A stretch of DNA of 64,000 nucleotides. Source: Sphingobacterium sp. LZ7M1 (GTDB lineage: Bacteria > Bacteroidota > Bacteroidia > Sphingobacteriales > Sphingobacteriaceae). Location of the stretch: positions 124,001 through 188,000 of the forward strand of contig NZ_CP101134.1 of NCBI RefSeq assembly GCF_024296865.1, read 5' to 3'. Under the pieces are notes generated by a model, which made no database searches, was not told the origin of the DNA, and worked only from the letters and a program-made list of their open reading frames with translations. Of this stretch, positions 41,224-52,102 are shown piece after piece; the stretch's first letter is position 1, and each line of letters opens with the position of its first letter. Both the position numbers and the translations under genes were made by a program.

Positions 41224-43143
41224 ATGGCAAGATTAAATTTATTAGAGGAAACCCGCTTTGAGAAAGTTCCAGTAACGGTATACCCCTCTCAAGACGAAGC
41301 TTCTGTTAAAGTTGCTGAGCGCATCGCTGCTATCATTAAAGATAAGCATGCAAAAGGGGAAAAGGCAGTTTTAGGTCTAGCGACCGGAGCAACGCCAGTA
41401 AAAGTCTACAAAGAACTTGTGAGAATGCACAAGGAAGAGGGATTAAGCTTCCAAAACGTTGTTACTTTCAACTTGGATGAGTATTACCCGATGCTTCCGA
41501 CTGCAGAACAAAGTTATGTAGCATTCATGAACAAGCATTTGTTCAATCATGTTGATATTCCCAAAGAGAACATCAATATTCCAGATGGAACACTTGCAGA
41601 AGACAAGGTTCAGGCTTTCTGTGAAGGCTATGAACAGAAAATCTCCAGCTTGGGAGGTTTAGATATCCAATTATTGGGTATTGGTCGTACAGGACACATT
41701 GGTTTCAATGAACCAGGGTCTGCGCCAAACTCAGGTACTCGCTTGGTCACCTTAGATGACCTTACAAGAAGAGATGCTTCACGCGACTTCGGTGGTAAGG
41801 AAAATGTACCAACAAAAGCGATTACCATGGGTGTAGGTACGATTTTCAAAGCCAAGGAAATTGTATTGATGGCATGGAACGAGAAGAAAGCTGAAATCGT
41901 GAAGAAAGCGGTTGAAGGGGAAATTTCTTCTGATATTCCTGCGACTTATCTTCAGATGTCTGATCATGTTGAGTTTGTGTTGGATGAAGATGCTGCTTCA
42001 GCCTTGACCCGCTTTAACCTTCCTTGGTTGGCGCATGATGTGGTATGGACAGACAAATTAGTTAAAAAAGCAGTTGTTTGGCTTTCATTGCATTTGGATA
42101 AAGCTATCCTGAAACTTACCGATGATGACTATAACAATAATGGTATGGCTCAATTAATTACTGAGCAAGGTACTGCTTATAGCATCAACATCCGTATTTT
42201 CAATGAATTACAACGTACCATTACAGGTTGGCCAGGTGGTAAACCAGGTGTGGATGATTCTAACCGCCCTGAAAGAGCTGAACCAGCACAAAAGAATGTA
42301 ATCTTATTTTCTCCACACCCTGATGATGATGTGATCTCAATGGGAGGTACTTTCATTCGTTTGGCTGATCAAGGTCATAATGTACATGTGGCTTATCAAA
42401 CTTCTGGTAATACCGCTGTTTGGGACGATGATGTGTTACGTTATTTGGAATTCGTTCAAGACTATGCGGTAGTCGTGGAAGATGATAATGGCGTTACGCG
42501 TAAGATCTATGATGAGGCTCGTGAATTCTTTAAAGTTAAAAAGCCTAATCAAGTAGACCCTGAAATTATCAGAACGATCAAAGGACTTATCCGTAAGGGT
42601 GAAGCTATTGCTGGAGCTCGTTTCGTAGGGCTTCCTGATGAGAATATCCACTTTATGGACCTTCCGTTCTATGATCGCGGTAAATTCTCTAAGGAGATCG
42701 ATTTTGAAGATGATATTCAGCAGACCATGGAATTGCTTCGCCAAGTGAAACCTCAACAGGTTTTTGCTGCCGGTGACTTTGCAGATCCACATGGTACCCA
42801 TAAAGTTTGTTTCGATATTATCCTGGAAGCTTTATTGCGATTGAGAGAAACCGACGAATGGACTAAAGATTGTTGGTTATGGTTATATAGAGGTGCATGG
42901 CACGAATATCCGATCCATGATATCGAAATGGCGGTTCCACTTTCTCCACAAGAGGTGAAACGCAAAAGGTTGGCAATCTTCAAACACCAATCTCAAAAAG
43001 ATCTTCCTGTATTCCCAGGAGATGATCCAAGAGAGTTTTGGGTTCGTGCTGAAGATCGTACTAGCGAAACAGCTGGATTGTACCACCAATTAGGATTAGC
43101 GAACTATGAAGCTATCGAAGCTTTTGTTCGTTGGAAATTCTAA
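41224..43143 (+). CDS. nagB: Glucosamine-6-phosphate deaminase fused to a PIG-L deacetylase-like domain
   Basis: A 639-residue fusion. Residues 1-280 are NagB: KAVLGLATGATPVKVYKELVRM, NLDEYYPM and GIGRTGHIGFNEPGSAP (about 153-168) form the sugar-phosphate site. From about residue 355 a PIG-L/LmbE-like domain follows, with FSPHPDDDVISMGGT (residue 364 region), QTSGNTAVWDDD and GDFADPHGTHKVCFD as metal-binding stretches. NagB converts GlcN6P to Fru6P and ammonia; the second domain may deacetylate a GlcNAc derivative. The fusion is full length with no frame break, and is a known arrangement in Bacteroidota. A strong terminator follows. Confidence 0.93.
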   Translation: MARLNLLEETRFEKVPVTVYPSQDEASVKVAERIAAIIKDKHAKGEKAVLGLATGATPVKVYKELVRMHKEEGLSFQNVVTFNLDEYYPMLPTAEQSYVAFMNKHLFNHVDIPKENINIPDGTLAEDKVQAFCEGYEQKISSLGGLDIQLLGIGRTGHIGFNEPGSAPNSGTRLVTLDDLTRRDASRDFGGKENVPTKAITMGVGTIFKAKEIVLMAWNEKKAEIVKKAVEGEISSDIPATYLQMSDHVEFVLDEDAASALTRFNLPWLAHDVVWTDKLVKKAVVWLSLHLDKAILKLTDDDYNNNGMAQLITEQGTAYSINIRIFNELQRTITGWPGGKPGVDDSNRPERAEPAQKNVILFSPHPDDDVISMGGTFIRLADQGHNVHVAYQTSGNTAVWDDDVLRYLEFVQDYAVVVEDDNGVTRKIYDEAREFFKVKKPNQVDPEIIRTIKGLIRKGEAIAGARFVGLPDENIHFMDLPFYDRGKFSKEIDFEDDIQQTMELLRQVKPQQVFAAGDFADPHGTHKVCFDIILEALLRLRETDEWTKDCWLWLYRGAWHEYPIHDIEMAVPLSPQEVKRKRLAIFKHQSQKDLPVFPGDDPREFWVRAEDRTSETAGLYHQLGLANYEAIEAFVRWKF

Positions 43144-43165
43144 TCTAGGTATAAATAGATATTAG

Positions 43166-43200
43166 ATAAGCTGTCCTCGAAAGGGACAGCTTATTTTTTT
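43166..43200 (+). terminator. Terminator after nagB
   Basis: ATAAGCTGTCC and GGACAGCTTAT form a perfect 11-bp stem with a 7-base loop, followed by a T-run. Confidence 0.92.
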
Positions 43201-43286
43201 GGTAAAAATTTCGGATTGTGAATGTTTTTATCGGATTGTTTATTTTTTTAATGTTACCCCGACATTACTTTTGCAGCACTATTTAG
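43201..43286 (+). promoter_or_regulatory. Promoter of TonB receptor 1 with paired GATTG direct repeats
   Basis: Two copies of TCGGATTGT lie at 43211-43219 and 43231-43239, exactly 20 bases apart. They are followed by TACTTTTGC (43266-43274), a match to the Bacteroidota -7 box, then AGCACTATTTA. A homologous arrangement occurs at 46701-46785 upstream of receptor 2: GGTAAAATTT, paired GATTG repeats and TACATTTGCAGCAGTATTTA. Direct repeats two helical turns apart fit an AraC-type activator dimer. Confidence 0.65.
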
Positions 43287-43306
43287 AATCAGTACAAATA
43301 AATACC

Positions 43307-45724
43307 ATGAAAACATCATATCTACTTGCTCTGCTTGGAGCGACTACGATCTACACTGCCGCCAATGCTCAAACGACTGTAAAAGGGAAAGTTAGTAGCA
43401 ATAACAATGAATCGATCTCCGGACTGAACATCAAAGTCAAGGATAAAGTTACCATGTCTGATGAGAATGGTTACTTTGAACTATATGTTCCTTATAAAGG
43501 TACCTTCAATCTGGAAGTAACTGGCGTTGGGTATGTAAAGGAGTCGGTATTCGTTAATCCAAAGGAAACAAACACAAATCTGGGGACCATCGTAATAAAG
43601 CCAGCTAATCACAACATCCAAGAAGTGGAAGTGACAGGATATAATTCTTTAAATGATAAAGTCCTTAATGTTGGAAAGGCTGGAATCCTAGACCGTGATC
43701 TTCCGCAAGCGGTTCAGATTGTCAATGCGCAAGTGATCGAAGATCAGCAAATCAATAGGTTGAGCGATGCCTTAAAGAATGCCAATGGGGTAGCTATGGG
43801 AGCAAATCGTGGTGGTGTTAATGAGAATTTCTTTGCGCGAGGTTATAGCCTAGGGTCCAATAATATCTTTAAGAACGGTGCACGTACGAACAATGGTGGA
43901 TCCATTGAAGCCAGTACTTTAGAGTCTGTTGAGATCTTAAAAGGGAGTGCTGCTATTCTGTATGGAGGTGTTACTGGAGGGGCAGTAGTAAACTTGGTGA
44001 CCAAAAAGCCCAAATTTGAATATGGTGGAGAGGTATCCATGCGTATGGGGAGTTATAACCAATACAAGCCTATCGTGGATGTGTATGGCCCGATTTCAGA
44101 TAAACTAGCTTTTCGGGTTGTCGGAACAGGAGAATATGCAGAAAATTATAGGGATTATGTTGAAAGCAAGAGATATTATATCAATCCTTCCCTATTATAT
44201 AAGATGTCGGAGAAATCCAGTTTGAACTTTATGTTTGATTACTTGAAATCAGATTATACGCCTGATTTTGGAATAGGTTCAGTGGATGGAAAGATCAATA
44301 AGGAGGTCGGTAGAAATACCTTTATCAATACGCCTTGGGCATTCAATAAAACCAATTCTTCGAATGGACAGATAAATTTTGAGCATGTCTTTTCAGATAA
44401 CTGGAATTTACAGGCCATAGCCAGTTACCAACAATATGGTCGCGATTATTATGGATCTGAACGTATCCAAGCCAAAGCTACAGGAATGGCCGCCCGTGCT
44501 TTAAACAGGACTGAGCAAGATGAACTAAGTTTCAACCAGCAATTGAACGTGAAAGGGAATGTGCAAACGGGAAATATAAAACATCAGATCTTAATTGGAG
44601 CTGATGCAGATCAATCCAATACCAAAAACTATGCTTTCAATATCTATGGGGCGGGATTGGACAATAAGCCAAGTACAGCATACGATAGCATCAATGTTTT
44701 TAATCCCTATACCGCTATGATGCGTTCAGATATGCCAGGTGTTGATTTGAAAACAAGAACTACAACAGATATCAACCGTTATGGAGTCTTTGCACAAGAC
44801 TTGATTTCCTTGACTAAGGAGTTTAAAATCCTTGCTGGGATCCGATATACTTATCAAAAAACCAAGAATGCAGAGGTGTATGACTATGCAACTGGAGAAA
44901 CGACAATAACGCCTAACAAAGGTAAAGATGGCGAAGATATGGGAAGTAAGGTAGATAAAGCATGGTCTCCAAAGTTGGCCTTGATCTATCAACCTATTTC
45001 GACCATGAGCATCTATGCTAGTTATGCGAATAACTTCACTTCAAACTCAGGTTATGATTTAAATTTCCAACCTATGGGACCATCATTGATCGATCAGTAT
45101 GAAGCTGGTGTTAAGAATGATTTCTTCAATGGCAGACTATCGGCAAACCTGACCTGGTACAGAATTCAGAACAATAAGTTTGCACAGACCATCATTGAAG
45201 CTGACGGAACGGTAAAAGATCCTAACATGAAAGAATTTACCGGAAAGACTGCCTCTGATGGTGTTGAGTTAGATTTGACCGGTAAAATTGCCGAAGGCCT
45301 GAACGTTATGGCCGGATATAGTTACAACTTTATGCGTTATTTGGAAACCAATGAAAACGGAAATGTAGAAGGGGTTCGCTTGGTAGGAACAACAGCGCAT
45401 TCTGCGAATGGAACTGTATTCTATACCCTTCAAAATGGAAGTTTAAAAGGGTTGAAACTAGGATTCTCGACATTCTATACAGGTAAGAGAAATGCAGGTT
45501 GGAACAACAGCAAAGTAAATGAGAAAGAAGGTGTAAACAGACTGATCGCAGTGGATCCATTTACGACATTTGATTTCTCAGCTGGATATACCTATAAAAA
45601 CTGGAGCATCTTAGGAAAGGTTAGCAATATCGGAAATGCCTTTAACTATTACGTGCATGAGAACTATAGTGTAAACCCGATTCCACCAAGAAGTTTTACC
45701 GGTACATTGAGTTATAAATTTTAA
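43307..45724 (+). CDS. TonB-dependent siderophore receptor 1
   Basis: An 805-residue outer-membrane receptor. The ATG at 43307 gives a signal peptide (MKTSYLLALLGATTIYTAANA); the longer ORF from 43199 overlaps the promoter and is rejected. The carboxypeptidase-regulatory-like domain covers about 20-110 (TTVKGKVSSNNNESISGLNIKV). The plug starts at about 128 (LPQAVQIVNAQVIEDQQINRLSDALKNANGV, FFARGYSLGSNNIFKNGAR) and is the pattern of TonB-siderophore receptors. The barrel ends RSFTGTLSYKF. Together with the AraC, DUF4374 and PepSY genes downstream it suggests iron-siderophore uptake. The ligand is unknown. Confidence 0.92.
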   Translation: MKTSYLLALLGATTIYTAANAQTTVKGKVSSNNNESISGLNIKVKDKVTMSDENGYFELYVPYKGTFNLEVTGVGYVKESVFVNPKETNTNLGTIVIKPANHNIQEVEVTGYNSLNDKVLNVGKAGILDRDLPQAVQIVNAQVIEDQQINRLSDALKNANGVAMGANRGGVNENFFARGYSLGSNNIFKNGARTNNGGSIEASTLESVEILKGSAAILYGGVTGGAVVNLVTKKPKFEYGGEVSMRMGSYNQYKPIVDVYGPISDKLAFRVVGTGEYAENYRDYVESKRYYINPSLLYKMSEKSSLNFMFDYLKSDYTPDFGIGSVDGKINKEVGRNTFINTPWAFNKTNSSNGQINFEHVFSDNWNLQAIASYQQYGRDYYGSERIQAKATGMAARALNRTEQDELSFNQQLNVKGNVQTGNIKHQILIGADADQSNTKNYAFNIYGAGLDNKPSTAYDSINVFNPYTAMMRSDMPGVDLKTRTTTDINRYGVFAQDLISLTKEFKILAGIRYTYQKTKNAEVYDYATGETTITPNKGKDGEDMGSKVDKAWSPKLALIYQPISTMSIYASYANNFTSNSGYDLNFQPMGPSLIDQYEAGVKNDFFNGRLSANLTWYRIQNNKFAQTIIEADGTVKDPNMKEFTGKTASDGVELDLTGKIAEGLNVMAGYSYNFMRYLETNENGNVEGVRLVGTTAHSANGTVFYTLQNGSLKGLKLGFSTFYTGKRNAGWNNSKVNEKEGVNRLIAVDPFTTFDFSAGYTYKNWSILGKVSNIGNAFNYYVHENYSVNPIPPRSFTGTLSYKF

Positions 45725-45742
45725 CCAATATCTATAAAGAGT

Positions 45743-45778
45743 AAAGCTGTTTACAATGAAGTAAACAGCTTTTTTTTT
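45743..45778 (+). terminator. Terminator after TonB receptor 1
   Basis: AAAGCTGTTTAC and GTAAACAGCTTT form a perfect 12-bp stem with a 6-base loop, followed by a run of T. Confidence 0.92.
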
Positions 45779-45800
45779 AATAAAATAGATGGAGTAATTC

Positions 45801-46745
45801 TTAGAAAATAGGTAAGTTGCTCAACAACTCAGGGATGGCCTGTACGCCTTCATGAGCCACTAAGAAAGTGTATCGAAGTGAGTTGGGGATAATTCCAAAA
45901 TACTTTTTAAAGGCGGTGGTGAAATGGGTGGAATGCTTATAGCCTGTCATCCTTGCCACATCAGAAATACGGTATTTGCCCATCAGGATCAGCTTTTTCG
46001 CATGCTCCATTTTCATTTCAGTAATATAGTTCATGATGGTCTTTCCATAGAACTGCTTGAAATGTTTCTTTAGGTATTGCTCATTGGTGCCCACTGATTT
46101 TGCCAATTCTGAAATGGTATGGTTTTTTGAAAGATCTTCATCAATTAGCTTTTTAGCCATTTGGATCTTTTCATAATGATTCTTATTGGCAATGATTTCC
46201 TTGTTTTCATTTTCCACAAAGAGGCTCTCCACCTGATGGATAATGACTTCCAGCAAAAGGGACTGGATCTTTAATTGATTGATATAGGAATCAGCTTCGT
46301 ACAGCTCGAAAATTTGTTGCAAAGCAAGAGCAATCCTGCCGTCCGCTTTAGTTAGCAATCCATGTTGAAACCGTTCTTGGTCTGCAATGTACTTGTCATG
46401 GAAGACTAAGAGCTTATCACTGGGGATTAACATCAGAAGGATGCGGTTGTCTAGACAGATGCTCTTCAAATCAAATAGGTCACCTTTATTCATGTGGATC
46501 AACATGTTGTCGCCCGCTTGTAAAAGGTAATTGTCCTGCTGGATCTGAATGGAACAATTTGCAGAATCTTCTAGTAGCAATAGATTTAAATAACCATCAA
46601 TAGGAGAAGTGAAACTGAATTTTTGCCTGCCTTTGAGTACCGTAAAATACATTAAAGTGCCTAATTCCAACATATTGGTAGAAATACCATTGGTTGTTTC
46701 AGGTAAAATTTCCGATTGCGTAGTATTTTTTTCTGATTGCGTCAT
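45801..46745 (-). CDS. AraC-family regulator of the two-receptor locus
   Basis: A regulator of up to 314 residues. An N-terminal sensing part (FSFTSPIDGYLNLLLLEDSANCSIQIQQDNYLLQAGDNMLIHM) is followed by the AraC DNA-binding domain (NHTISELAKSVGTNEQYLKKHFKQFYGKTIMNYI and YRISDVARMTGYKHSTHFTTAFKKYFGIIPNSLR). The first 12 residues contain a TQSE duplication encoded by the operator direct repeats, so the true start may be Met25 at 46673. It lies between the two receptor genes and is divergent from the second, which fits an iron- or siderophore-responsive regulator of both. Confidence 0.88.
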   Translation of the reverse strand: MTQSEKNTTQSEILPETTNGISTNMLELGTLMYFTVLKGRQKFSFTSPIDGYLNLLLLEDSANCSIQIQQDNYLLQAGDNMLIHMNKGDLFDLKSICLDNRILLMLIPSDKLLVFHDKYIADQERFQHGLLTKADGRIALALQQIFELYEADSYINQLKIQSLLLEVIIHQVESLFVENENKEIIANKNHYEKIQMAKKLIDEDLSKNHTISELAKSVGTNEQYLKKHFKQFYGKTIMNYITEMKMEHAKKLILMGKYRISDVARMTGYKHSTHFTTAFKKYFGIIPNSLRYTFLVAHEGVQAIPELLSNLPIF

Positions 46746-46785
46746 TTTGCTATTTAGAATAATTCTACATTTGCAGCAGTATTTA
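46701..46785 (+). promoter_or_regulatory. Promoter of TonB receptor 2 with paired GATTG direct repeats
   Basis: TTCCGATTGCG (46710-46720) and TTCTGATTGCG (46731-46741) are direct repeats with a period of 21 bases. TACATTTGC (46766-46774) is the -7 box, followed by AGCAGTATTTA. The block repeats the order and spacing found at 43201-43286; in both, the first GATTG lies 52 bases upstream of the -7 box. It overlaps the annotated 5' end of the AraC gene. Confidence 0.65.
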
Positions 46786-46834
46786 TTTAGACTTGTTCTA
46801 AAGAAAGTCGAAGTTACTGTATTAATCTGGAATA

Positions 46835-49258
46835 ATGAAACAATTTTACCTCACCATATTATTTTTATTTACCTGTATTATTGTATTTGCCCAAAATTCA
46901 ACAATAACCGGTAAAGTTCATTTGGTAGATGGGACGCCTGTTTCAAAAGCTACAGTGCGAATTGAGGGCACTCCAATTGCAAGCATTTCCGATGATGAAG
47001 GTTTGTATACATTGGAGCAAGTTCCTTATGGAAAACAGACCATCTTAGTGACCTCCATTGAGATTAAATCGAAGAGACTTCCTATTGATGTCAATAAGGC
47101 CAACTATGATTTACATATCCATATTGACCCAAGAGGAGAAATCAGTCTTGATGAGGTGCGGGTACAAGGGAATTCCGTAAAAAGAGAAATTGAGACCAAG
47201 GGGTTTGCTGTCAATGTGATCGAAACGAAAGAAGCTTCCACAAGAAATATTCAAACTAATGAACTCTTGGACCGTACTGTAGGAGTAAGGGTCCGTCAAA
47301 GTGGAGGTCTAGGTTCGGAGGTACAATATAACTTAAATGGGATGACTGGTCGATCGGTCGGGATATTCATTGATGGGATAGAAATTTCGACCTATGGTTC
47401 CTCATTTAACTTAAATAATATACCTCCTTCGATGATTGATCGCATCGAGGTATATAAAGGGGTTCTTCCTGCTCATTTAACAGGGGACTTGCTTGGAGGA
47501 GCAATCAATATTGTTCTTAAAAAAGGTACTTCGAGCAATAACTTATCTGCCTCTGTTTCTTATGGCTCATTCAATACTACCCAATCAGATATTTCTGGCC
47601 TTTATAGAAACGCGAAAACAGGTTTTACCACTAGGGTTTCAGGAAGTTTCTTGAATTCAGACAACGATTATGAAATCTGGGGTAAATTCTCCAAATATAT
47701 AGAACCCAATGGCGTTGTACGTCGTAACTATAGGACCAAACGATTCTTTGATGGCTATAGAGCATTATCTGGAAGATTTGAGTTTGGATTTACTGATGTA
47801 AAATGGGCGGATGCTTTCTTTTTAGGATATAATATCTCTGATTCTCATAAAGAGATTCAGCATGGCCAGACCATGGGGACTCCTTATATGGGCAGAACCT
47901 CTGATGCCACGGCTAATGTGTTGAGTTTGACTTATAATAAGAAGAACTTATTTGTGCCAGGCCTATCCTTGAATACCAATGCTGTCCATAGTTTTAGGAG
48001 CACCAATATCCTCGATACTATTCCTTGGGCCTACAATTGGGACGGACAGATCCGCCTTGATTTAAATGGTGATCCTATTCGTCGACTGGATGGAGCACAG
48101 CAGGGGAAACCTGCGATGACGGATATTGATCGTCAGGTAACCAATATCAGGACGAACTTGAGTTATGATATTCTTTCTGGACATAGATTCTCCGTGAACC
48201 ATGTTTTTTATACCGTAGATAGAAAAGACAAAAACTTGTTGATAAAAGATGGTAATACCGGCATCAACAGTTCGAATGATCTTGCAAAGAATGTCGTGTC
48301 GTTCAATTATGAAGCTCAAACGTTCCATAATAAGTTGACAACAAATCTGTTCTACAAGATTTATCAACAATCTATTGCTAGCCATTCTTATACAGGGGTA
48401 ATTGAAAACGGGCAGACGAAGATCGTTGAGAATGTCAGCAAGGACAACCGTGTAAATTATGGTTATGGTCTTGCGGCATCTTATAAATTGTTCAATCGAT
48501 TGGTACTTCTGGCCTCAGGAGAACGTGCGGTAAGAATGCCGGTTGATATGGAAACTTTTGGAAGTCCGGAAGATAATGTTCTGGCCAATCCGGGGATCTC
48601 ACCCGAAATCAGCGACAACTATAATGCGGGGTTTAGGTTAGGGACTTATGATTTCGGTGATCATAGATTTTCGGTTGGAACCAATGTTTTTTGGAGGAAC
48701 ACGAAAGACAGGATCATGCCGAGAGCTAATGAAATGATCAACAGCCAAGAAATTGAACTTACCCAATATGTCAATTTGGGGCTTTCTCAGTCCGTGGGCT
48801 TTGAAGGTGAACTGACCTATGCCCATAAGGACAAGCTTACGTTATTGTTCAATTTTTCCAAATTCAATTCCTTGTTTAAGCAAGAGTTTGATCCTACTTC
48901 AGGTCAACCGATGACCTATTACAACAAACAGATTCCTAATGAGCCTTTCTATACCATGAATGGAAATGTTCATTATAGATTAGATAATATCATTCAAAAA
49001 TCCTCTCAGTTAAACCTGTTCTACAATATTGGTTATGTGGCGCCTTTCAGCACAGTATGGCCAGATTCTGATTGGTTTATTACACCGGCACAGTACGCAC
49101 AGAATTTGGGTATGAGCTATGTTTTTCCTAACAAGAAACTCATTCTGGCACTGGATGTCAAGAACGTATTCAATGCTGAACTTTATGATAATTTCGGCGT
49201 TCAGAAGCCTGGTAGGGGATTTTATTTGAAACTGAACTACTCAATTAACAATATATAA
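46835..49258 (+). CDS. TonB-dependent receptor 2
   Basis: An 807-residue outer-membrane receptor with signal peptide MKQFYLTILFLFTCIIVFAQ, a regulatory-like domain (about 21-105: TITGKVHLVDGTPVSKATVRI), and a plug with ETKEASTRNIQTNELLDRTVGVRVRQSGGLGSEV and GRSVGIFIDGIEISTYGSSFNLNNIPPSMIDRIEVYKGVLPA, a standard TonB receptor order. The barrel ends PGRGFYLKLNYSINNI. It is divergent from the AraC gene and leads a probable unit with the DUF4374 and PepSY genes, whose starts follow after 21 and 78 bases. It differs in the plug from receptor 1, so the ligands may differ. Confidence 0.92.
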   Translation: MKQFYLTILFLFTCIIVFAQNSTITGKVHLVDGTPVSKATVRIEGTPIASISDDEGLYTLEQVPYGKQTILVTSIEIKSKRLPIDVNKANYDLHIHIDPRGEISLDEVRVQGNSVKREIETKGFAVNVIETKEASTRNIQTNELLDRTVGVRVRQSGGLGSEVQYNLNGMTGRSVGIFIDGIEISTYGSSFNLNNIPPSMIDRIEVYKGVLPAHLTGDLLGGAINIVLKKGTSSNNLSASVSYGSFNTTQSDISGLYRNAKTGFTTRVSGSFLNSDNDYEIWGKFSKYIEPNGVVRRNYRTKRFFDGYRALSGRFEFGFTDVKWADAFFLGYNISDSHKEIQHGQTMGTPYMGRTSDATANVLSLTYNKKNLFVPGLSLNTNAVHSFRSTNILDTIPWAYNWDGQIRLDLNGDPIRRLDGAQQGKPAMTDIDRQVTNIRTNLSYDILSGHRFSVNHVFYTVDRKDKNLLIKDGNTGINSSNDLAKNVVSFNYEAQTFHNKLTTNLFYKIYQQSIASHSYTGVIENGQTKIVENVSKDNRVNYGYGLAASYKLFNRLVLLASGERAVRMPVDMETFGSPEDNVLANPGISPEISDNYNAGFRLGTYDFGDHRFSVGTNVFWRNTKDRIMPRANEMINSQEIELTQYVNLGLSQSVGFEGELTYAHKDKLTLLFNFSKFNSLFKQEFDPTSGQPMTYYNKQIPNEPFYTMNGNVHYRLDNIIQKSSQLNLFYNIGYVAPFSTVWPDSDWFITPAQYAQNLGMSYVFPNKKLILALDVKNVFNAELYDNFGVQKPGRGFYLKLNYSINNI

Positions 49259-49279: not shown

Positions 49280-50626
49280 ATGAAAACGAATCTATTAAAG
49301 TATGCAATACTTGCCACTGGTTTGATATTTAGCAGTTGTTCAAAAGACGGAGAAGGTCCGAAAGAAGTAACTGAAGACGATATACGTTGGATCACTGTTT
49401 CAGGTGCGTTGATGGATGAGGAGCCAGGTGATGGTAATGCCGGAACTATGGTATTCAGTATGAAGCCTGAGGAAGCAAAAAGTCCAGCATTTTCAGTCGA
49501 TGTATTTGCGAATGGTCAGCACGTGAAATCTTCAAGAACAGCGCGTCTGCAAGCATCAGCTGATGGAAAGTATTTATATAATATCCAATATACAGGTGAT
49601 GATGGCGGTAATTTCAACAAATTCAGGGTTCGTGGTGGAAAGAACTTTACCCCGGAAGGCCCTGAAGTAGAGACAGCTACATATGTAAGTACAGCTCCAC
49701 GTTGGTTGAAAGCAGCAGAAGGGGTTGGTATTGCAGTTAGAGCAGCAGCAAATGATGCAGTTTATACAGGTCAAGCGCCAAACTTTGTATACCAAGAAAG
49801 AACAGCAAAAACGGATGTTATTTCATTGGATTTAAATGATCCCAAGATTACAAAAACCACCAAATTCGACTTGAAATTAACTGCTGAAGAAGTTGCAGCT
49901 GGTTATTATGTAAGCCGTATCGATGTTCCTGTAATCAATAAAGCTGGGAATAAAGTATTTATTGGAGCAGCAGTTTCAAAACACAATACTTCAAAATTCA
50001 CCCTTGGAACTGATGGAAAACCTACTTGGGAAAATGATAGAAATGGTTTGAAAAGCTGGGCTAAAACTTTGGTGTTAGACTACCCTTCTTTAACAAATCC
50101 TAAAATCCTTACTTCTAACAAAACAAGAGGTAATACCAATGGATACCGTAGTACTCTTCAGTATGTAGGTACAGATGGTCATGTTTACCAAGCTACCTCA
50201 GGCGAAGCAGTAGGCGGTGGTGGTTCTAAGATCTTACGAATCGATGGTACAAGCAATGAATATGATGCTTCATACGCATTTAGTTTAGATCAGGCTTTAG
50301 GGGTTAAAGATTCATACATCGAAACATGGAAATATGTAGGTGATGGAATAGGATACGTTGTGTACAATGTAGCTGGTAAGGGTGGATATATTGCGTGGGT
50401 AGATCTAAAAAATAATACCGCTAGAAAATATAACATTCCAAACCAAGACGAATTGAATTTCCGTCAGATCCAAAATATTGCATTGGAAGGGGATGATGTA
50501 TTTATAGCTATCGCACCAGTGGGTAAAGATGGAAACATCTATGTGTTCAACAGAAAATCTGGAGAGATGTCAGTAGGGGCAAAACTTGTGAATAAAACGG
50601 GTAACCAGTATATCGGAATTTATTAA
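49280..50626 (+). CDS. DUF4374 lipoprotein
   Basis: A 448-residue lipoprotein (lipobox SSC, Cys20) with the DUF4374 layout: ITVSGALMDEEPGDGNAGTMVFSM near the start, then ADGKYLYNIQYTGDDGG, and the end GNIYVFNRKSGEMSVGAKLV. The fold is probably a beta-propeller. In Bacteroidota this family is usually encoded next to TonB receptors and PepSY proteins for siderophore or heme uptake, which is the context here. It is likely a surface accessory of receptor 2, starting 21 bases after it. Confidence 0.85.
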   Translation: MKTNLLKYAILATGLIFSSCSKDGEGPKEVTEDDIRWITVSGALMDEEPGDGNAGTMVFSMKPEEAKSPAFSVDVFANGQHVKSSRTARLQASADGKYLYNIQYTGDDGGNFNKFRVRGGKNFTPEGPEVETATYVSTAPRWLKAAEGVGIAVRAAANDAVYTGQAPNFVYQERTAKTDVISLDLNDPKITKTTKFDLKLTAEEVAAGYYVSRIDVPVINKAGNKVFIGAAVSKHNTSKFTLGTDGKPTWENDRNGLKSWAKTLVLDYPSLTNPKILTSNKTRGNTNGYRSTLQYVGTDGHVYQATSGEAVGGGGSKILRIDGTSNEYDASYAFSLDQALGVKDSYIETWKYVGDGIGYVVYNVAGKGGYIAWVDLKNNTARKYNIPNQDELNFRQIQNIALEGDDVFIAIAPVGKDGNIYVFNRKSGEMSVGAKLVNKTGNQYIGIY

Positions 50627-50704: not shown

Positions 50705-52102
50705 ATGAGTAAAAGAGTACAAAAAAAATCAACATGGATGAAAGTAAGGAAACTTTTCAACGACATCCATTTGTGGGGAGGGTTGATATCGGGGATCGTG
50801 GTTTTTATCGTTTGTATCACCGGTACAATCTACACCTATAACACTGAAATCAGGGCATTGGCAATGCCTGAATTCAATAAAGTAAAAGTTGAAGGACAGA
50901 AGAAAAATGCAGATCAATTGTTGGCCGCTATTACGCCGGAAGTAAAAGGTAAAATAGTAGGTGTAAAAGTACCATATGCCGATAATGCTCCTACATTCTT
51001 CATGTACAATAAAAAAGAAAAGGACGGGGAAGGGAAGGAAAAAGAAGGAAAACCTGAAAATTCCAAAGGTCAAGAAGGACAAAAACCTGGGGACAGGACG
51101 GATGTAAAGGAAGGTGCAACAGCTGAAAAACCTCTAAGACCCGGAGAAGCAAAAGTTTGGGAAAGCAAAGGTCCGCAGAGAGCTGCCCCTGCTGGTCCTG
51201 GAGGGCCTGCTGGAGGTCGTGGTCCGAGAGCAAACCAGTTGGCCGTAAATCCTTATACAGGTCAGGTAATCGGTGATCCTTCGGATGTGAAAACCAAGAC
51301 CGCAGAGTTTATGCAAAAGATGTTCGGTTTGCACCGTTGGTTATTGTTGAATGAAATTGAAGAGCCGATCATTGAAGGTGTTGAAAACAGAAAGCTTGGT
51401 TCTTGGATTACGGGAACAGCTACCTTATTGTTTTTGTTAGGCGTGATTACAGGTATCGTCATTTGGTTTCCTAATAAAATGAGAGCATGGAAAAACGGAT
51501 TAAACATCCGTTGGTCGGCGAATTGGAAAAGGCTCAATCATGACCTTCACAATACACTGGGTTTCTACAGCTGTATCATTCTGTTCTTGATGGCCGTTAC
51601 GGGCCCCTTTTGGTCATTTGATTGGTATCGTGCGGGCTGGCAAAAAACATGGGGAACCTATAAATCTCCAGATGCTCCAAAAGAAGAGAAAGCTCCTGTC
51701 CTATCTACATTACCTGCGGATGGAAAAAAACCGAAGAGCATTGAAGAGACCATTTTGGCCGTTAATAAAGTCCTGCCTTATGATGGCGATGTCACTATCA
51801 ACTTTGCAAAAGATAGCGTAGGGACAGTTTCAATCAGTAAAAACAGAACAGGTTTCTTTGCTCCTTCAGCTGGAGATAAATTAACCTTGGACCAGTATAG
51901 TGGTGAAGTGCTGGAGAGAGATGTCTTCCGCGAGAAACCATTTAACCAGAGAGCTTCTGCTTCCATAAAGGCATTGCATATCGGGGATATCTATGGACCA
52001 TTTACAAAAATGCTTTATTTTATTTCCTGTCTGATCGCAACCTCATTGCCGATAACAGGCGTGATGATCTGGATCAATAAAATGAAGAAAACAAAAAAGT
52101 AA
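50705..52102 (+). CDS. PepSY-associated transmembrane protein (iron uptake)
   Basis: A 465-residue inner-membrane protein with four helices: residues about 22-42 (IHLWGGLISGIVVFIVCITGTIY), 235-255 (ITGTATLLFLLGVITGIVIWF), 285-305 (TLGFYSCIILFLMAVTGPFW) and 430-455. This is the PepSY-TM arrangement of proteins that help reduce ferric siderophores or flavins. Between helices 1 and 2 there is a low-complexity insert rich in Lys, Glu, Gly and Pro (KEKDGEGKEKEGK to AGPGGPAGG), about 75 residues. It follows DUF4374 by 78 bases and is separated by a hairpin. Confidence 0.88.
   Translation: MSKRVQKKSTWMKVRKLFNDIHLWGGLISGIVVFIVCITGTIYTYNTEIRALAMPEFNKVKVEGQKKNADQLLAAITPEVKGKIVGVKVPYADNAPTFFMYNKKEKDGEGKEKEGKPENSKGQEGQKPGDRTDVKEGATAEKPLRPGEAKVWESKGPQRAAPAGPGGPAGGRGPRANQLAVNPYTGQVIGDPSDVKTKTAEFMQKMFGLHRWLLLNEIEEPIIEGVENRKLGSWITGTATLLFLLGVITGIVIWFPNKMRAWKNGLNIRWSANWKRLNHDLHNTLGFYSCIILFLMAVTGPFWSFDWYRAGWQKTWGTYKSPDAPKEEKAPVLSTLPADGKKPKSIEETILAVNKVLPYDGDVTINFAKDSVGTVSISKNRTGFFAPSAGDKLTLDQYSGEVLERDVFREKPFNQRASASIKALHIGDIYGPFTKMLYFISCLIATSLPITGVMIWINKMKKTKK

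Follow-up and report, generated by a model that had tools for sequence, protein, structure and literature searches.

We found that the promoters of two TonB-dependent receptor genes of Sphingobacterium sp. LZ7M1, here called R1 and R2, share a paired repeat, TTTCNGATTG, that is likely the operator of the AraC-type regulator encoded between them. The DNA analyzed (the window) is a stretch of 64,000 nucleotides (NZ_CP101134.1, positions 124,001 to 188,000, forward strand) that is part of a 4.59-Mb single-contig genome; coordinates without a locus name are those of the window. Our reading, to which we assign a probability of about 0.8 based on sequence comparison, is that the AraC protein would act as a class-II activator of both receptor operons, with Fur-type palindromes as a brake. 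The repeat pair has a rigid geometry, is conserved across the genus, occurs together with the AraC gene, and is retained where genes have moved or been exchanged. The features concerned are:

43209..43228, + strand: R1 half-site O1 (TTTCGGATTGTGAATGTTTT); 1.63 bits per position in 21 aligned promoters, versus 0.23 just upstream
43229..43248, + strand: R1 half-site O2 (TATCGGATTGTTTATTTTTT), 20 bp from O1
43266..43273, + strand: R1 -7 box, TACTTTTG, read directly
43281..43299, + strand: weaker Fur-type palindrome of R1, ATTTAGAATCAGTACAAAT; two mismatches to ATTTAGANNNNNTCTAAAT
43307..45724, + strand: R1, TonB-dependent siderophore receptor (TIGR01783; PDB matches including FptA, FpvA and FoxA)
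45801..46745, - strand: AraC-type regulator gene (HTH_18 and HTH_AraC); its start codon closes the R2 half-site O2
46709..46729, + strand: R2 half-site O1 (TTTCCGATTGCGTAGTATTTT); 1.49 bits per position in 39 aligned promoters, versus 0.15 upstream
46730..46749, + strand: R2 half-site O2 (TTTCTGATTGCGTCATTTTG), 21 bp from O1; the AraC gene starts at its CAT, read on the opposite strand
46752..46770, + strand: R2 Fur-type palindrome 1, ATTTAGAATAATTCTACAT; one mismatch; overlaps the -7 box
46766..46773, + strand: R2 -7 box, TACATTTG, read directly
46785..46803, + strand: R2 Fur-type palindrome 2, ATTTAGACTTGTTCTAAAG; one mismatch
46835..49258, + strand: R2, XusA-like TonB-dependent receptor (PDB 9gbc_A, E-value 5.9e-87)

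A preliminary description of this sequence had reported a GATTG-containing repeat twice in each promoter, 20 to 21 bp apart, with the first GATTG 52 bases upstream of the -7 box. Both statements hold when the sequence is read directly. The R1 promoter has TCGGATTG at 43211 and 43231 and its -7 box at 43266; the R2 promoter has TCCGATTG at 46711, TCTGATTG at 46732 and its -7 box at 46766; and the distance from the first GATTG to the -7 T is 52 bases in each. The unit had been given as TYNGATTG. That repeat is present, but all four copies fit the stricter TCNGATTG, and the half-site consensus is about TTTCnGATTnTnAAncTTTT. A longer shared order of elements had also been proposed, of which the repeats and the -7 box stand. 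The GGTAAAAT(T)T box, which starts at 46702 in the R2 promoter, was considered as part of the operator and rejected as incidental: it is not conserved in orthologs and not enriched in the window (15 matches with at most one mismatch, 12.1 expected). AGCASTATTTA is start-site sequence running into the Fur-type palindrome and lies outside the AraC operator.

The pair is rare. The pattern TCNGATTG-N11..14-TCNGATTG occurs four times in the genome; two occurrences are those described here (N12 and N13), and the remaining two (both N14) lie within long open reading frames (626 and 556 codons). Not one of 300 paired dinucleotide shuffles equaled the four-copy match of the two real promoters; this statistic was picked after the repeat had been seen. 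A 68-position promoter profile had exactly two hits in the genome, the R1 and R2 sites (E 1.1e-13 and 1.1e-10), which themselves belonged to its training set. A looser pattern also matched at C1:304667, a third site that is absent from the profile hits. Genome rarity, shuffles and profile search together rule out a chance origin of the pair.

The placement of the pair suggests how the regulator might act. Promoters of the Bacteroidota type have a -33 element position, and class-II activators of the AraC family have a characteristic geometry. O1 and O2 are separated by two helical turns and would be occupied by two AraC protomers, and O2 would cover about -48 to -29, over the expected position of the -33 element. 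The R1 and R2 promoters have a good -7 box and no recognizable -33 box. Because O2 stands in the place of the -33 element in promoters that lack such a box, the AraC protein is likely a class-II activator. In passages of a study of Flavobacterium psychrophilum (PMC9723704), the consensus TAnnTTTG lies at -12 to -5. One regulator would thus co-activate R1 and a Xus-like operon consisting of R2, a XusB-like lipoprotein gene and a PepSY gene. The effector is probably an imported ferric siderophore, by analogy with PchR. The Fur-type palindromes, which lie over the -7 box or start site, would shut the promoters when iron is sufficient, so that expression would need two keys, low iron and the presence of the siderophore. 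A scan for sigma-70 promoters was uninformative (13 promoter-like sites in the window, 12.3 in shuffles).

It is possible, but unlikely, that the AraC protein binds the pair and mainly represses the receptors until the siderophore arrives. Members of the AraC family can both activate and repress, and the title of a PchR paper in the reference list of PMC10281387 names that protein as activator and repressor. However, a site that lies upstream of the -7 box, in place of the absent -33 box, favors activation, and the Fur-type boxes would already provide repression.

These boxes had been overlooked in the preliminary description, as had the overlap of the R2 operator with the start of the AraC gene. 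The three palindromes are close to ATTTAGA-N5-TCTAAAT. The name Fur-type reflects their form and their context, and binding of Fur is predicted. At R2, a half-box of the first palindrome is at a fixed offset in 39 of 39 promoters and the downstream half-box of the second falls between +17 and +25 in 37 of 39; at R1, a half-box falls between +13 and +17 in 19 of 21. Allowing up to three mismatches, the motif has no excess in the window (9 matches, 8.7 in shuffles). With at most one mismatch there are 12 sites in the genome, of which ten are outside this locus. Four of the ten are beside receptor-like genes (loci L048, L051, L052 and L054), the gene at L048 being matched in its N-terminal domains alone; four others (L046, L047, L050 and L053), judged by eye, are beside neither receptor-like nor DUF6686 genes. 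The boxes of R1, L048 and L054 each begin 15 nucleotides after the -7 T. A published Fur box for Flavobacterium or the Bacteroidetes was not found among the literature matches listed. The remaining two of the ten sites are upstream of DUF6686 genes (L045 and L049), possible members of the iron regulon.

We found that the pair is conserved in orthologous promoters, as the preliminary description had required of it, and that it tracks the AraC gene. A scan of genome contigs gave 46 loci. R1 promoters were readable in 20 of them (20 promoters) and R2 promoters in 37 (38 promoters); the promoter sets were limited to loci in which the start of R1 or R2 is intact, and O1 was sought between 40 and 75 bases before the -7 box. 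The distance from O1 to the -7 T was 52 in 19 of 20 R1 promoters and 37 of 38 R2 promoters. The best repeat spacing was 20 in 19 of 20 R1 promoters and 21 in 34 of 38 R2 promoters. With the LZ7M1 copy added, mean information rose from the upstream values given above to those of O1, and was 1.41 bits in O2 and 1.65 bits in the -7 box for R1, and 1.36 and 1.65 bits for R2. Autocorrelation peaked at 20 for R1 (6.19; next 3.84) and at 21 for R2 (5.73; next 3.41).

We also searched 93 genomes of the genus. A strict first pattern matched in 74 of them; most of its hits (98 of 128) lay far from the AraC gene, and it was superseded by the promoter profile. Of the 60 aligned promoters, 34 served to train the profile, and many of these came from species that were later searched, which means that the hits do not count as independent evidence. 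The profile gave 77 hits at E <=1e-6, 74 of them within 8 kb of an ortholog of this AraC gene, in 51 genomes. The three strong hits elsewhere were in G172, where the AraC gene is on another contig, and in G016 and G154 (see below). At E <=0.01, 85 hits were near the AraC gene and covered 59 of the 64 genomes that have it. Twenty-nine genomes have no close AraC ortholog, and only G154 among them has a strong site, next to the gene for an AraC homolog whose DNA-binding domain is related. Four of the 29 keep an R2 that is ~50% identical (L235-L238). In these the code is altered, yet two units spaced 21 bp apart can be read at nearly the same register, with operator scores of 16 of 20 (L235-L237) and 14 (L238); AraC identity is 31% in L236 and L237, and in L235 the C-terminal part alone aligned. 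No pair was found at more distant receptors (32-35% identity) of four further genomes or at a second receptor of G182 (L239-L243; scores 12-13).

That another regulator binds the pair and the AraC gene is a mere neighbor is also unlikely, and if anything slightly more so. The genome has 43 HTH_18 matches, 42 of them besides this AraC protein (there are 85 Plug matches), and binding by this particular protein is predicted from sequence; these two points weigh against our reading. However, the distribution of strong sites follows this AraC gene, both where it is present and where it is missing, and the length and position of the repeat fit an AraC-type protein.

Loci in which genes have moved or been exchanged carry the most weight. 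In nine loci (L145, L148, L149, L151-L155 and L158) R2 is no longer beside the AraC gene. All nine relocated R2 promoters retained the pair at spacing 21, with scores of 18-19 of 20. In five loci R1 has been exchanged for a receptor that is 28-30% identical (L129, L133, L135, L144 and L145), and the operator was kept in all but L129. In L128, R2 is only 44% identical and the operator has the full score of 20. In Sphingobacterium sp. CZ-2 (G016; L274:5942-10630) a block of NagB and R1 is ~308 kb from the AraC gene if the chromosome is circular, and its operator is intact. The AraC locus of CZ-2 (L168) lacks NagB, indicating that the block was split away. This arrangement is a natural trans test of the operator. 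In G154 (L275:6637-9687) a SusC/RagA-type receptor (TIGR04056, 489.8 bits versus a cut-off of 368.25) stands in the place of R2. The operator is kept between this receptor and the AraC homolog, whose DNA-binding domain is 58% identical, and, judged by eye, the Fur-type boxes are kept too. In G203 (L280:4630-7686) a receptor of the same SusC/RagA type is beside an AraC homolog and O1 is degenerate.

These loci also bear on the R2 operator as coding sequence. The conserved GATTGCGTCAT of O2 ends in CAT, which, read on the opposite strand, is where the AraC gene starts. In 23 of the 26 divergent loci this ATG is in frame and the frame stays open (the exceptions are L160, L162 and L164), and the R2 operator therefore encodes the repeated N-terminus MTQSEK..TQSE. 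The repeat might then be mere coding sequence and its likeness to R1 a coincidence, and the spacing of 21 is indeed a whole number of codons. We consider this very improbable. The same pair is present at R1 promoters, outside the AraC gene. Relocated R2 promoters keep the pair, whereas the AraC genes left behind begin without the TQSE repeat (MENSCAL- or alike); thus it is the DNA, and not the protein, that is conserved. In L162 the old AraC N-terminal frame has stop codons and the operator is still kept; the AraC gene there seems to start further downstream. In addition, AraC residues 1-22 have low model confidence and are therefore probably disordered. There is equally little to recommend the notion that the promoters are alike because one was recently copied from the other, with no shared regulation: the order of elements is identical in both, but the stretch from O2 to the -7 box is not shared between the R1 and R2 promoter sets, and the difference in spacing, 20 versus 21, is kept across the genus.

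Further observations weigh against the AraC operator reading. At E <=0.01, 26 of 111 profile hits lie away from the AraC gene, and 5 of the 64 genomes with the gene have no hit near it, the search filters being known to lose some weak matches. The pair is lost from its expected place in L164 (score 11), L129 has a degenerate R1 operator, and the R2 pairs of L129, L138, L163 and L165 are weak, their best spacing being 20. Operator score did not correlate with AraC identity in the 38 R2 promoters (rho 0.18, p 0.27). In 45 loci, uncorrected for kinship, its correlation with identity was weak for the DNA-binding domain (rho 0.34, p 0.02) and stronger for the N-terminal domain (rho 0.46), and we dropped the argument from coevolution by identity on both counts. 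Most co-occurrences of operator and AraC gene are not independent because of synteny. The 12 genomic Fur-type sites compare with 7 for the reversed pattern, so that the motif alone is weak. Lastly, the AraC protein probably limits its own transcription at R2, where the operator lies in its first codons, but in 8 of the 9 loci with a relocated R2 there is no operator at the AraC start (best pair 12-14 of 20). Autoregulation is thus not general, and likely belongs to the divergent form alone. In the ninth locus, L145, the R1 operator stands at the AraC start, and a Fur-type box is there in 6 of the 9.

The regulator has the expected domains. Its C-terminal domain has two helix-turn-helix motifs (PF12833, E 8.7e-20, and PF00165), with the helices also present in the structural model, and the N-terminal domain is modeled as beta-rich, with eight strands at residues 33-108. 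Fold matches include ToxT, Rns and the AraC dimerization domain; the whole-chain root-mean-square deviation is ~20, the placement of domains differing. The nearest protein in a named collection, possibly with records from the same genome excluded, is from Sphingobacterium mizutaii NCTC 12149 (97%). Among 25 of 31 NCBIfam matches listed, none was above its cut-off, and most covered the C-terminal part. The gene adjoins that of a TonB siderophore receptor, as do genes for PchR-type regulators. In distant orthologs the sensor domain is mostly 25-39% identical versus 67-82% for the aligned part of the DNA-binding domain; for the AraC protein of L164 no N-terminal match was found. This difference between the domains would be in keeping with ligands that change while the operator stays constant, although faster divergence of the N-terminal domain is common in the AraC family.

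We assigned the receptors and their neighbors by family and fold. R1 is above the curated cut-off of the siderophore receptor family TIGR01783 (276.3 versus 223.5 bits) and far under that of the heme receptor family TIGR01785 (58.4 versus 316.85 bits); R2 has no TIGR01785 match at E 0.001. R2 aligns to residues 4-790 of the 796 in chain 9gbc_A; 9GBC is the XusAB complex of Bacteroides thetaiotaomicron, as described in passages of PMC13142918. The lipoprotein encoded next to R2 had been labeled DUF4374. No Pfam family, DUF4374 included, matched any of 24 orthologs at E 0.01, and the label is borne out by fold: an AlphaFold2 model (predicted local distance difference test, pLDDT, 89.5) has XusB chains as all of its top seven PDB matches, the best being ferrichrome-bound XusB of Bacteroides fragilis (E 4.1e-16). 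Identity to XusB across the fold match is 11-13%, and the sequence profile match to the B. fragilis protein is weak (E 0.012). The PepSY gene reported downstream is indeed there. By fold and gene content, R2, the XusB-like lipoprotein and the PepSY protein appear to make up a Xus-like xenosiderophore operon. Thus, of the siderophore or heme regulon that had been proposed, the siderophore part is retained and the heme part is not.

The gene order is NagB/PIG-L, R1, AraC (on the - strand), R2, lipoprotein and PepSY, with DUF2147 and KBL-like genes as outer neighbors. The remaining genes are:

41224..43143, + strand: NagB/PIG-L fusion gene, a flanking syntenic marker (PF01182, PF02585)
49280..50626, + strand: XusB-like lipoprotein gene (AlphaFold2 model and PDB fold matches; lipobox judged by eye)
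50705..52102, + strand: gene for the XusC-like PepSY transmembrane protein (PF03929, E 1.6e-58)

A terminator-like hairpin follows NagB at 43164-43196 and ends ~12 bases before O1 of R1, and the R1 promoter is therefore tightly packed; the stretch has three such sites, with 3.0 expected. In L141, R1 is cut down to a 63-residue C-terminal remnant (L141:9016-9204), and a second R2 with a XusB-like gene (L141:1210-3624) has a decayed operator (score 16).

The LZ7M1 genome has two more divergent AraC-receptor pairs, at L048 and L054, with these promoters:

L048:1428-1519 (C1 near 842.8 kb): tandem repeat at 21 bp, -7 box and Fur-type box
L054:1427-1519 (C1 near 4021.1 kb): tandem repeat at 22 bp, -7 box and Fur-type box

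We examined 16 L048-type and 14 L054-type loci, excluding the partial matches L212, L217, L226 and L234. L218 and L229-L233 were left out of the alignments, having no -7 box by pattern or another layout. The L048-type repeat is ATCCnTTnTTTGnTAT at spacing 21 (15 promoters aligned; autocorrelation 6.25, next 2.98), and the L054-type repeat has a TTTCGCTATTT-type unit at spacing 22 (9 aligned; 5.65, next 2.97). They sit at nearly the same place as the R1/R2 pair and have other codes. In L230, L231 and L233, which are L054-type orthologs, the sequence upstream of the AraC gene has a different layout around an ATTTAGA..TCTAATT palindrome. On balance, we lean slightly toward the notion that siderophore-receptor promoters of Sphingobacterium are built on an interchangeable chassis. 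Each would combine an AraC tandem site at 20-22 bp, in nearly fixed register to the -7 box and partly within the first codons of the activator, with a Fur-type box at the start site, and each module would have its own code. Within the R1/R2 module, the DNA-binding domain (about 67-99% identity) and operator would be kept while the sensor (mostly about 25-39%) and the receptors are exchanged, even for a SusC/RagA-type receptor.

How does this compare with known systems? PchR acts jointly with Fur. In E. coli, AraC binds direct-repeat half-sites ~21 bp apart at araBAD, the proximal one beside or over the -35 element; ligand, sequence and promoter class differ from those here. PchR of Pseudomonas aeruginosa is the model of a siderophore-sensing AraC protein at a receptor promoter, that of FptA, in passages of PMC10281387. 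Like PchR, the protein described here would be a cytosolic one-component regulator of the AraC family controlling a TonB siderophore receptor, with a ferric siderophore as presumed effector. Unlike the PchR system, the one here has a probably different operator sequence, a -7 promoter of the Bacteroidota type, two receptor operons, a rigid 52-bp register, and an operator inside the regulator's own first codons. Like XusABC of Bacteroides, as far as passages of PMC13142918 describe it, the R2 operon has together a XusA TonB receptor, a lipoprotein with the XusB fold and a XusC PepSY protein. Unlike XusABC, it has an AraC gene and Fur-type boxes in front of it and shares its operator code with a second siderophore receptor, and its XusB-like protein is divergent and misses Pfam.

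The xus genes of B. thetaiotaomicron are up 489- to 676-fold in low iron in the passages of PMC10434189, where one AraC gene, BT1385, is in a table without a tie to xus. A word search of PMC13142918 found no occurrence of AraC or regulat-, and no regulator of the xus genes is named in the passages of these two papers. Among the literature matches listed, as far as their titles and the openings of their abstracts go, none describes an AraC operator for siderophore genes in Sphingobacterium or other Bacteroidota; subscription literature is mostly outside that scope and absence is unproven. Siderophore-linked AraC regulators and Fur are already known, and the operator found here appears to be new.

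Xus-type systems let Bacteroidota take the siderophores of other organisms. Our results provide, for a Xus-like locus, a named candidate regulator, a precise operator, and a putative two-key promoter design. They also provide a natural experiment in the co-evolution of a regulator, its operator, and swapped receptors. If the chassis notion is true, then such a locus could be adapted to further foreign substrates with its regulatory wiring left as it is.

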